Positions 43 to 28,500 of a DNA stretch of 30,130 bases are shown here, in pieces. Made by a program: the position numbers and the translations under genes. This stretch comes from a virus. The notes below the pieces were generated by a model. That model did no database searches. It had not been told where the DNA came from and was given only the letters and a program-made list of their open reading frames with translations. The stretch covers positions 1 to 30,130 of IMG/VR virus record IMGVR_UViG_3300001213_000059; one strand, given 5' to 3'. Positions within the stretch are counted from its first letter, which is position 1, and every line of letters begins with the position of its first letter.

Positions 43-1281
43 ATGGCCGTGCCAAATAACATTTTGCAACAGGTACAAACCTACCAGTTGTCAAACCTTG
101 CATATTTGCAAAACTTAAACTGTTTCGTAGCCACTGCGAACACAAAATTCAAGAACTTCGAAAAGCTGACAGCCAATCTTGGTGATACAGTCACGTTCGA
201 CTTGCCCCCACGTTTCACGACTGCTGCAAGTCTTGTAGCTACATTTCAGTCTGCTGATCAGAGAGTTGAGAACTTGACCGTGGATAAAGCGATCAACGTT
301 TCCTACGCTTTCACAGCACAACAATTTATCTTCAACGTTGAAGATTACATGGAACAGTTCGGTAAAGCCGCTGTTATGGAAATGTCTGCTGAGATTGAGT
401 CTGACATCGCCACCGTATGCGTTGAGGCTCCTTACCGCTTCTACGGTGATGGTATTACTCAAATCAACTCATATGGTCAGTTGGCTGCCGCTCTGGCTAT
501 GTACCGCAACTACGGTGCTGCCAAAGACAATACCAAGTTCTATCTGAGTGACATTGCCCAGTCTGCAATCGTAAACACAGGTTTGAACCAATTCACTCCT
601 GACCGAAACAACAAGTCTGCCAACAGCTGGGACGTTGGTGATTTCGACCGTGCTGCATTCTATGTTTCAAACTTGCTGCCCGTGCATACTGCCGGAACAA
701 TCGGTGAAGACGGTACAACCCTCACAGTAGTTTCCGTGGTCAAAGATGCCAACGATGCGGTTATTCAGATCGTATTCTCTGGTGCTGGTACTGATCCTGA
801 TGCCATCAAAGAGTTTGATAAAGGTCAGTTCGTAGATGGGGTTTCCGGTCAACCCAATCTGCGCTACCTGACTTTCATCGGTCACAAAGTATCCAGTAAC
901 CCTGTGCAATTTCGGGTAACTGCTGATGCTGCCTCCTCTGCTGGTGCTGTAACAGTCGATGTTTATCCTCCACTGAAGGCTTCCTCTGGTAACACTCGCA
1001 ACCTGAACTTTGAAATTGCTGCTGGTATGCAGGTCACTTTCCTGCCTTCTCACAGAGCTGGAATGATCACAGCTGGCAATCCTCTGTTCCTTGGTATGCC
1101 GATGCTGCCTGAAGAAGTTCCTTTCCCTACAGGTAATGAGATTGACCCTGATACAGCCGTATCACTGCGTATGTATTATGGCTCTCTATTTGGTCAAAAC
1201 CAGAGGGGTATGATACATGATGCTATATGGGGGAAGAAGTGCGTCCCAGAGTACGCAATGTCTGTAATCTTTCCGCTTTAA
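43..1281 (+). CDS. Major capsid (coat) protein, P22-like
   Basis: This 412-aa protein probably forms the icosahedral shell (HK97 fold, P22 coat subgroup). The start is the ATG after GGAGaagaagac. The N-terminal part (about residues 1-215) has the mixed helical look of a coat protein. A beta-rich, Gly/Ala/Thr/Val-rich stretch at about 220-345 fits an inserted domain. The C-terminus carries a DAIWGKKCVPEYAMSV segment resembling the end of podoviral coat proteins. The family call rests partly on context: genes further downstream match P22 gp4 and gp10 in order. Codon use is less AT-rich than the HNH gene that follows, as expected for a highly expressed structural gene. No scaffold or portal gene is seen before it, so they probably lie upstream of the window. 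Confidence 0.8.
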   Translation: MAVPNNILQQVQTYQLSNLAYLQNLNCFVATANTKFKNFEKLTANLGDTVTFDLPPRFTTAASLVATFQSADQRVENLTVDKAINVSYAFTAQQFIFNVEDYMEQFGKAAVMEMSAEIESDIATVCVEAPYRFYGDGITQINSYGQLAAALAMYRNYGAAKDNTKFYLSDIAQSAIVNTGLNQFTPDRNNKSANSWDVGDFDRAAFYVSNLLPVHTAGTIGEDGTTLTVVSVVKDANDAVIQIVFSGAGTDPDAIKEFDKGQFVDGVSGQPNLRYLTFIGHKVSSNPVQFRVTADAASSAGAVTVDVYPPLKASSGNTRNLNFEIAAGMQVTFLPSHRAGMITAGNPLFLGMPMLPEEVPFPTGNEIDPDTAVSLRMYYGSLFGQNQRGMIHDAIWGKKCVPEYAMSVIFPL

Positions 1282-3533: not shown

Positions 3534-5131
3534 TGATGATGACGCCGAATGGCCAACAAGTCCCGGTAACAATCGTGGGTTCAAGCATCTTTGGCCGACA
3601 CCCAATCATTAGCGATGAAAGGACATACAATCTTTTCATCTCTGATAACTGGCTGCTTAATTTTGCCGGATATGAAGAAGCAGTCCATCTGGCAACTGCT
3701 GAAGGCGTAGAAGGAAGAGGATTATTTCATTCCGTAAGAGGAAATTTCTTGCTGGCTGTTTTTGGATTCAATATTTACAGAATTGACCAGAACCTTGGGT
3801 GGACATTTTTGTTTGCCATGGGAACAAATTCTGGTGAAGTTTTCATGGATGAAAATTTAAGTTCACAGATTGCTATTGTTGATGGAACTTCAACCCTTTA
3901 TATTTATAATTACGCAACTGGAATTAATGCGGTACAACCTGTAAATTTCACAGGAACAGCGCAATCATTTATTCCCAATTATGTGACATACCAAAACACT
4001 CATTTTATCTTTGGAAATGGCATAGAAGATGCAAGTGGATCACAATGGTATGTGTATAAAAGCGGTTACATTCCAGCCTCACCCAGCACGGCTTATGACC
4101 TTAAATATGTTCAAACCCTTACGCTGCAAACGAAGCCTGACTTTGCAAAAGCAGCTATTCGTATTCCCAGCCATGGTAATAATTTACTGGTACTGGGAAC
4201 AACAGTAGGTGAGATTTGGACGGATGTTGGTGGCCTTCAGGTTTATCAAAGACAATCCTCAATAAACATCGATTATGGAGTAGCCAGCGTATCCACCATT
4301 GCGGCCAGTGATGACATGGTGGCTTGGCTCGGAATCAACGAAAAATCATCAGCAGCCATCATGGTTATGGCAGGTGGGAAAGCCAAAAGACTGTCAACGG
4401 ACGGAATCGATTATCTCCTTTCAGGCGTAACCAGACCTGACAAATCCACAGCCATGTTTTACAGGCAGGATGGGCATGTCTTTTATATCCTCACCTTCTT
4501 TGATCAAGCTGATAATTTTTCCATTATGTATGACTTCACGACTGAAAAGTTCTATGACATTACGGATTGGGACTTCACATATCACCCAGCTCGCCAGATG
4601 GCTTTTTTTAACAACAGGATTTACTTTGTTTCATTGAAACAGGGTAGCTTGATGCACATCAGTACTGACCTGACAACCATTTCAACCAATATTCAGAATC
4701 AATATGAGATTCCCAGAATCAGAAAATGTGACACATTCCGGTTGCCCGGAAGTGATCGATTCATCGTAAATCAATTCAGTTTTACCATTGAAAATGGTGT
4801 TGAACCCGGAGTGGACTTTCAGGTTGAATGCGATGGGTACATTCTGGGAGAAGTCAGCAGCGATATCATGTATTCCGAAGATGACTTGCCATTACTGATT
4901 GAAGGTGGAAGTTGTCAGATTTATCGACCAAGAGTTGATGTGAATTGTTCGAAAAATGGTGGTGAAACTTATGGCAACACCGTCCCTTACTTTATGCACG
5001 CATCAGGTCATTATAAAAATCAACCACGTTTTCATCAATTGGGAGAAGCAAATCAGTTCACAATTCAGATGAGATTTTGGGGTTTTGGTGCGGTGGTAAT
5101 TGCTGATGGCGTATTGGAGGTGAGGCAATGA
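3533..5131 (+). CDS. Packaged-DNA stabilisation protein, P22 gp10-like
   Basis: This 532-aa protein resembles P22 gp10 (472 aa), the tail-hub protein that plugs the portal channel and carries the tailspike and needle. The N-terminal region runs through VPVTIVGSSIFGRHP and SDERTYNLFISDNWL, typical of the family's start. It is followed by long beta-propeller-like repeats with many aromatic residues. Three ATG codons lie in tandem (3533, 3536, 3539); the first overlaps the upstream stop and no strong Shine-Dalgarno picks one. The stop overlaps the next gene by ATGA. It is slightly longer than P22 gp10, and no frameshift is visible. Confidence 0.78.
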   Translation: MMMTPNGQQVPVTIVGSSIFGRHPIISDERTYNLFISDNWLLNFAGYEEAVHLATAEGVEGRGLFHSVRGNFLLAVFGFNIYRIDQNLGWTFLFAMGTNSGEVFMDENLSSQIAIVDGTSTLYIYNYATGINAVQPVNFTGTAQSFIPNYVTYQNTHFIFGNGIEDASGSQWYVYKSGYIPASPSTAYDLKYVQTLTLQTKPDFAKAAIRIPSHGNNLLVLGTTVGEIWTDVGGLQVYQRQSSINIDYGVASVSTIAASDDMVAWLGINEKSSAAIMVMAGGKAKRLSTDGIDYLLSGVTRPDKSTAMFYRQDGHVFYILTFFDQADNFSIMYDFTTEKFYDITDWDFTYHPARQMAFFNNRIYFVSLKQGSLMHISTDLTTISTNIQNQYEIPRIRKCDTFRLPGSDRFIVNQFSFTIENGVEPGVDFQVECDGYILGEVSSDIMYSEDDLPLLIEGGSCQIYRPRVDVNCSKNGGETYGNTVPYFMHASGHYKNQPRFHQLGEANQFTIQMRFWGFGAVVIADGVLEVRQ

Positions 5132-25204: not shown

Positions 25205-25753
25205 TTAAGAAAGGAGCTTTGTTATACTGCCACGTGATAATTTCATTTCACGGGATATTTGACTAATGTTATATCCTTTTTTGCATAGTTCAATTGCTTC
25301 ATCACGCCTTTTATAGTCTATGGTTGGTCTGCCACAATGTTTGCCCTTTGCTTTTGCTTTATCTATTCCTTCTCGCTGCCTACTTCTTATCATTGACCTT
25401 TCAAATTGAGCAAATGCTCCCATTATTTGGAACAATAAAGTATTCATCGCATTGTCGCTGCCATTGAATATAAGCTTTTCAGTGTGGAATTGTACTGTTA
25501 CACCTTTTGTTATTAACAGGCTTAAAAGTTCCTGCAAGTGCCTCAAGTCTCGCGCAAGCCTATCTATACTATGTATATGTAATGTATCGCCTGATCTTAT
25601 ATATAGTATGCAAGCGTCCAATTGTGGGCGATCCTTCACGCTTCCCGTGATCTTATCCGTGAATATTCTATCCAACTTCAATCCATCGAGCTGTCTATCA
25701 GTGTTCTGTCCATCACTTGATACTCTTACATAACCTATCTGTTGACCATTCAT
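25205..25753 (-). CDS. Serine resolvase / invertase
   Basis: The 182-aa protein is a small serine recombinase of the Tn3-resolvase/Hin family. It cuts DNA through Ser12 in the YVRVSS motif. Arg10 and the segment SIDRLARD (Asp64, Arg65, Arg68) complete the active site. The long E helix includes FQIMGAFAQFERSMIRSRQ and the C-terminal HTH is YNISQISREMKLSRGSI. GGAcagtaca precedes the ATG. It could invert a DNA segment, resolve multimers of a plasmid-like phage form, or be of transposon origin. It lies 10 kb from the fibre block, and no clear inversion sites were found there. Confidence 0.88.
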   Translation of the reverse strand: MNGQQIGYVRVSSDGQNTDRQLDGLKLDRIFTDKITGSVKDRPQLDACILYIRSGDTLHIHSIDRLARDLRHLQELLSLLITKGVTVQFHTEKLIFNGSDNAMNTLLFQIMGAFAQFERSMIRSRQREGIDKAKAKGKHCGRPTIDYKRRDEAIELCKKGYNISQISREMKLSRGSITKLLS

Positions 25754-27231: not shown

Positions 27232-27453
27232 ATGTTGAAACGATTAATCTGTCGCGCAAAAGGCCATATAACAGGAATCATCCCTTATGAAAACAAAGAG
27301 GTGAATGGAAAGATGACAGTAGTTATTCCTATTGACGCGGAATGCTTGCGCTGCAAAAAAATGTTTTTCCGGCCTCTGGAGCTTTATGAAATGATGGCCA
27401 TCATCAACGGGCAAGCGATTACATGCCCAATAACAAGAAGGAAAACCAAATGA
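27232..27453 (+). CDS. Small CxxC protein
   Basis: The 73-aa protein starts behind AAGGgtgaagt. It has LKRLICRAKGHITGIIP near the start and a CLRCKK motif, then MFFRPLELYEMM; a single zinc site is possible. It opens the rightward operon. Function not recognised. Confidence 0.55.
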   Translation: MLKRLICRAKGHITGIIPYENKEVNGKMTVVIPIDAECLRCKKMFFRPLELYEMMAIINGQAITCPITRRKTK

Positions 27454-27731
27454 TGTTGAAAACCCCTATTACCAAAATGACAGACGAAGAACTCTGGGAG
27501 GCAAATAAGCTCTTGCAAAAATTTCATGATGCTTTTTTTAAATTTGACGCACTCCTGGCCGATGCTCCAGATGGAATGGTGGAAATGATTGATTATCAAT
27601 TCACATGGTTGCGCCAGACGCGTGAGCATCTTTGCATGAAAGAAATAGTTAAACGCAACCTCAATGGATTTGCGGAATCTTACAAAAGGATAATAGAAGA
27701 GATAAACCAACGAGAAAAGGAAAAAGTATGA
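27450..27731 (+). CDS. Small helical hypothetical protein
   Basis: The 93-aa protein starts at 27450 (AAGGAaaacca), overlapping the upstream stop by ATGA. It is helical: MTDEELWEANKLLQKFHDAF, then a C-terminal IIEEINQREKEKV. No family recognised. Confidence 0.55.
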   Translation: MMLKTPITKMTDEELWEANKLLQKFHDAFFKFDALLADAPDGMVEMIDYQFTWLRQTREHLCMKEIVKRNLNGFAESYKRIIEEINQREKEKV

Positions 27732-27892
27732 ACCATGACGACTGGCGACATTTGTTTTTAAGTGTGGTGGAAAGCATCGACCGATTGACCGAGCAGGTTG
27801 AGAAGTCCATGAACGAATTGGATTGTAAGCTTCATCTTGTCCATGACGAAATTGCTGATATTGCGGATTGTTTGACGGGAGAAAAGGAATGA
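27728..27892 (+). CDS. Small coiled-coil protein
   Basis: The 54-aa protein begins MNHDDWRHLFLSVVESI and is a continuous amphipathic helix with heptads (IDRLTEQVEKSMNELDCKLH). It is coupled to both neighbours by ATGA overlaps. No function recognised. Confidence 0.5.
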   Translation: MNHDDWRHLFLSVVESIDRLTEQVEKSMNELDCKLHLVHDEIADIADCLTGEKE

Positions 27893-28074
27893 ATAAAGAA
27901 ATTATTGAAAACGTAATTGCGTTGGTTAAAAAAAGCGATGCAATCAATGACAGCATGATCGAATTTTTCAGGAAGGCTGGCAAGGAACACCTACTTGCAG
28001 AACACATCACAAGCAAAGGTGAGCATCTTCAGATGCTGCAAGAATTGAACTCCATGAAGGAGGGTTACAATTAA
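27889..28074 (+). CDS. Small helical hypothetical protein
   Basis: The 61-aa protein starts at 27889 behind GGAGaaaagga, overlapping the previous stop (ATGA). It is helical: IIENVIALVKKSDAINDSMI and HITSKGEHLQMLQELNSM. Its TAA overlaps the ATT start of the next gene. Confidence 0.5.
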   Translation: MNKEIIENVIALVKKSDAINDSMIEFFRKAGKEHLLAEHITSKGEHLQMLQELNSMKEGYN

Positions 28075-28327
28075 TTTTGATTTCGAAAAAACGCAATACA
28101 TAGGCTGCATTCCGGTGGCCGATCATCCAACTCATCCCAGCGATCAGTCTCCCTGCATTATTGAAGCATGTCCCGGTTGCCATAAGCCAATGTGGGTCAG
28201 TGAGAAGAAGCGGAAGCATAAAGCACAACATCCGAAAGCTGAGATTGCTTGTTTTCGATGTCTTATTCGTGCTGCTATTAATCAAGGTATAGACTGTGAA
28301 TTGGCTGATATAGGTGACGTACAATGA
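28070..28327 (+). CDS. Zinc-ribbon protein with probable ATT start codon
   Basis: The open frame begins after a stop at 28055 and has no ATG, GTG or TTG until a GTG at 28115 that lacks a ribosome site. At 28070 an ATT lies 6 bases behind GGAGG (part of AAGGAGGG, 28057-28064), a near-perfect Shine-Dalgarno, and overlaps the previous TAA (ATTAA). From there the 85-aa protein reads NFDFEKTQYIGCIPV, then CPGC and CFRC zinc pairs and a helical end. Starting at 28115 would lose the first 15 residues. Initiation at ATT is rare in bacteria (known for infC) and implies low, coupled translation. Stop overlaps the next ATG (ATGA). Confidence 0.62.
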   Translation: MNFDFEKTQYIGCIPVADHPTHPSDQSPCIIEACPGCHKPMWVSEKKRKHKAQHPKAEIACFRCLIRAAINQGIDCELADIGDVQ

Positions 28328-28500
28328 ATATTGACTTAAAAGATGTTTTGGAATCCAGATTGGTTTATTTGAAGAATATCGTCACTTGTGGCCAGATTCC
28401 CGGGATAATGGATAAAACGGAATTGGATGAGATGAAAGGAAGAGTCAAAGAACTGAAGCTCGTTCTGGACTTATGGAATGGCAAACTAAAGGTTGCGTAA
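28324..28500 (+). CDS. Small helical hypothetical protein
   Basis: The 58-aa protein (ATGA overlap with the gene before) contains DLKDVLESRLVYLKNIV, then a helix with MDKTELDEMKGRVKELK. It ends at the AT-rich border of the candidate origin. Function not recognised. Confidence 0.5.
   Translation: MNIDLKDVLESRLVYLKNIVTCGQIPGIMDKTELDEMKGRVKELKLVLDLWNGKLKVA

Follow-up and report, generated by a model that had tools for sequence, protein, structure and literature searches.

Initiation at AUU behind a strong Shine-Dalgarno (SD) sequence is described for infC, the IF3 gene, of Escherichia coli, and infC of the Legionellaceae has ATT with a strong SD as well. A second described case is cvfC1 of Staphylococcus aureus, a chromosomal Firmicute gene for a small protein with a putative zinc finger; its AUU start with an extended SD gives about 10% of the AUG level and was shown by ribosome profiling and reporters (PMC13009471). 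In Streptomyces, sigR encodes a host regulator from a GTC codon, and its repression by IF3 was shown experimentally (PMC5472188). More generally, IF3 represses non-canonical starts (PMC5472188) and dampens re-initiation as well, an effect that is weaker in the presence of an SD (PMC2268962).

The phage gene analyzed here resembles all three. It shares the AUU codon and the strong SD with infC, which is also found with this start in the inferred host family, but it is unrelated to IF3, and hence without the autoregulatory loop, and its start overlaps the stop of an upstream gene. Like cvfC1, it pairs a small, putatively zinc-binding protein with a probable AUU start and an extended SD, here in a phage rather than on a Firmicute chromosome; like sigR, it would be a non-canonical start in a non-IF3 gene, although the codon differs. 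Judged from its sequence, the site is of a known type: a weak near-cognate start with an extended SD, in a stop-start overlap. A text search of the open literature returned no described phage gene with an AUU or ATT start, which is weak evidence of rarity.

The window spans the complete virus record, 30,130 bases in all. Its relevant features are as follows.

27889-28074, + strand: upstream orphan gene of 61 aa, from ATG 27889 to the stop TAA 28072-28074
28057-28064, + strand: Shine-Dalgarno sequence AAGGAGGG, within the 3' end of the gene before it; -12.2 kcal/mol from 7 uninterrupted base pairs with the 16S tail
28070-28072, + strand: proposed start codon ATT; column of ATG in 8 of 10 homologues, SD 5 nt upstream
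28070-28327, + strand: gene for a zinc-ribbon-like protein, 85 aa; homologues, AlphaFold2 model with mean pLDDT 87
28097-28114, + strand: stretch encoding residues 10-15, the conserved (Y)(I/V)GCIP block, directly ahead of GTG 28115; alignment, strand 9-13 in the model
28115-28117, + strand: GTG, first canonical codon in the frame, rejected as start; SD -2.4, invariant block would be lost
28324-28500, + strand: downstream gene, whose ATG overlaps the stop of the zinc-ribbon gene as ATGA

Reading frame, Shine-Dalgarno sequence and gene context

Direct reading of the sequence confirmed what the earlier note had described. An in-frame TGA at 28055-28057 leaves the frame open from 28058 to 28327, and no ATG, GTG or TTG precedes GTG 28115; the next canonical codon is ATG 28190. 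The near-perfect anti-16S match that the note had placed ahead of ATT 28070 forms 7 contiguous pairs, and the ATT does overlap the upstream stop. The SD, AAGGAGGG, is found once in the window and is separated from the ATT by the 5-nt spacer TTACA (6 nt if the SD is counted as AAGGAGG).

The strength of this SD is exceptional for the phage. The duplex reaches -12.2 kcal/mol at ATT 28070 versus -2.4 at GTG 28115, ranking second among 47 predicted starts; only the gene at 5128 has a stronger one, and the other 46 have a median of -6.0. Across all window positions, 0.083% match or beat it, and upstream of 28115 this ATT is the sole near-cognate codon with an SD. Just one ATT in the window combines an SD of this strength with 70 or more open codons and the lack of a canonical start upstream, against 0.02 expected per random window (dinucleotide-Markov sequences of the same dinucleotide content). 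At looser cut-offs this mechanical signal is weak: ATT 11387 also has an SD of -10.3 and no canonical start upstream, but it lies within the 11286 gene.

The gene belongs to a cassette of small + strand genes, 27232 to 28500, close to the right end of the window. The cassette junctions at 27450, 27728, 27889 and 28324 are ATGA overlaps, and the junction at 28070 is ATTAA, a 5-nt overlap in which ATT 28070-28072 and the upstream TAA 28072-28074 have one base in common. This stop-start overlap makes translational coupling of the zinc-ribbon gene to the upstream gene plausible. If AAUUGAACUCC paired with GGAGGGUUACAAUU, the resulting hairpin could mask both the SD and the start (-6.4 kcal/mol); since its stability is not unusual (12th among 47 starts, 20% of background), it is not claimed to enforce coupling.

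The encoded protein carries two Cys-x2-Cys knuckles, with C34/C37 invariant and C61/C64 present in 9 of 10 aligned sequences. In the AlphaFold2 model, built from the alignment (mean pLDDT 87), residues 9-13 form a high-confidence strand. A zinc ribbon, as the earlier note had called it, is suggested by the cysteine pairs together with the model. No Pfam family matched, the best PHROGs match had an E-value of 0.13, and a Foldseek search of the PDB with the model gave a best E-value of 1.6 and no function, so the term was narrowed to zinc-ribbon-like. The protein is possibly a small regulator.

Homologues and alternative explanations

Scans of IMG/VR returned ten distinct homologues with 45-56% identity, and one remote relative. 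The proposal that the gene is translated from ATT, for which the earlier note had looked to relatives with an aligned ATG, is supported: the alignment column of ATT 28070 holds Met in eight of the ten (L001, L002, L003, L004, L007, L011, L012 and L013), but not in L010 or L109. The aligned ATG is the sole canonical start ahead of the conserved block in L003 and L012. None of the ten has ATT at the aligned start, whose conservation among relatives is typical of AUU-started genes such as infC and ccpN without being strictly required, and their aligned ATGs have weak SDs. L002 and L004 may begin at a well-placed alternative, an ATG five codons upstream that has a good SD, and L010 may start at a GTG farther upstream. 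In L007, a 6-codon ORF at 2330-2355 (ATGACATCAGCAAGCCAATGA), possibly a leader peptide, overlaps the zinc-ribbon ATG as ATGA; this ATG has no SD of its own.

Searches of GenBank phages and plasmids, of genome contigs and of 140 Legionellaceae genomes did not find the zinc-ribbon gene. A near-DNA search in phages gave no match to the region, and 65 records of capsid-related phages held only two weak, distant matches to the gene and no close relative of it.

The aligned ATG in most homologues also bears on the alternative that survives best, a sequencing or assembly error that hides a G at 28072 and thus an ordinary ATG start. The base rests on a single metagenomic contig; a second copy of the region was searched for and none was found, nor did a pattern search of IMG/VR turn up the ATT site again. 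A G at this position would, however, abolish the upstream TAA and extend the upstream gene by two codons to TGA 28078-28080, so that it would end in KEGYNEF instead of KEGYN, with an 11-nt overlap, whereas the 5-nt overlap as read suits the tight ATGA overlaps of the cassette. Searches for relatives of the upstream 61-aa gene, which could have shown its true stop, found none. Furthermore, the second-strongest SD of the phage at exactly this site would be a coincidence under an error and is expected for a weak start. This favors a real ATT, without proving it, and we consider an error unlikely.

Less probable again is a recent loss of the start codon, in which the T is real and the gene is decaying, barely or not translated. 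Such decay is consistent with the apparently derived state of the ATT relative to the homologues' ATG and with the low output of AUU starts (PMC13009471), but neither the frame nor any invariant residue has been lost, and the SD is very strong.

Initiation further downstream conflicts with the conserved N-terminus. All ten homologues share the (Y)(I/V)GCIP block, in which Y, G, C, I and P are invariant, and all ten begin upstream of it. The nearest homologue, L001 (55%), has TTACAATG at the place of the window's TTACAATT, and over codons 2-15 it differs from the window at 1, 3 and 7 first, second and third codon positions, respectively. This excess at third positions indicates protein-coding constraint upstream of 28115, which, together with the upstream starts of the homologues and the strand at residues 9-13, places the start upstream of 28115. 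GTG 28115 is the first canonical start in the frame, but its SD is only -2.4 kcal/mol, and beginning there would remove the invariant block and a strand of the model. It is therefore excluded as the start, and the outcome that the earlier note had named as contradicting its proposal, homologues beginning at this GTG with nothing conserved upstream, is the reverse of what was found. A start here or at another in-frame codon is highly improbable, and no canonical start codon in the window's frame appears to account for the conserved N-terminus.

Equally improbable is a fusion protein made by a +1 frameshift near AAU UAA in the upstream gene. The 17-nt frame overlap (28058-28074) and the SD-like stretch ahead of the stop would suit it, but there is no slippery codon, as a tRNA-Asn paired with AAU would not be expected to pair anew with AUU, and the homologues, stand-alone genes with different upstream neighbors, speak against it.

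Proposed mechanism and likely host

We assign a probability of roughly 0.77 to the whole explanation that the zinc-ribbon gene is translated from AUU 28070, a start derived from ATG, compensated by its SD and probably reached by re-initiation. We infer initiation at AUU, coupling and an effect of IF3, as follows. Initiator tRNA would start the gene at AUU 28070, the weak codon being compensated by the 7-base-pair SD helix 5-6 nt upstream. The UAA at 28072-28074, where ribosomes ending the upstream gene would stop, includes the final base of the start codon; ribosomes held by the SD after this stop would probably re-initiate at the AUU and so account for part of the translation of the zinc-ribbon gene. 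Output would be a fraction of the AUG level and, as for infC, would fall as IF3 rises, giving low-level production of the zinc-ribbon protein. A single G-to-T change in an ancestral ATG is the probable origin of the ATT itself.

Gene callers restricted to ATG, GTG and TTG would cut 15 residues from this protein and lose a conserved part of the fold. If confirmed, the start would add one phage gene to the few genes begun at AUU, and would offer a natural case of a very strong SD accompanying the loss of an ATG.

The major capsid protein (window 43-1281) points to the host. It is 92% identical to a protein in a contig of Legionella maceachernii ATCC 35300, which makes a Legionella-like bacterium the likely host. 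A 41-kb contig assigned to a Desulfosporosinus MAG (L103) also carries the capsid gene, at 94% identity; it is possibly a misbinned phage contig. Over 100 relatives of the capsid protein are present in IMG/VR, and identity to GenBank phages is only about 25%; the phage apparently belongs to a little-described group with Legionella-like hosts.

In all 24 infC genes read from this family, that of L. maceachernii and the 23 other Legionellaceae genes that parsed, ATT occupies the conserved start position and follows a strong SD, with SD strengths from -8.3 to -12.7 kcal/mol; 7 of the 30 loci surveyed (L117-L146) did not parse. Given this conservation throughout the genes read, ribosomes of the Legionella lineage very probably initiate at ATT codons that follow a strong SD. 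That the infC-like start lets the dose of the phage gene follow free IF3, and hence the translational state of a Legionella-like host, is a speculative and rather doubtful extension.

Two minor observations concern annotation and gene content. With a conserved non-canonical infC start in the Legionellaceae, automatic annotation may shift the start of this gene. The phage also encodes a small resolvase-type serine recombinase on the - strand (window 25205-25753; Pfam PF00239, E-value 4e-35), along with YqaJ and RecT genes.
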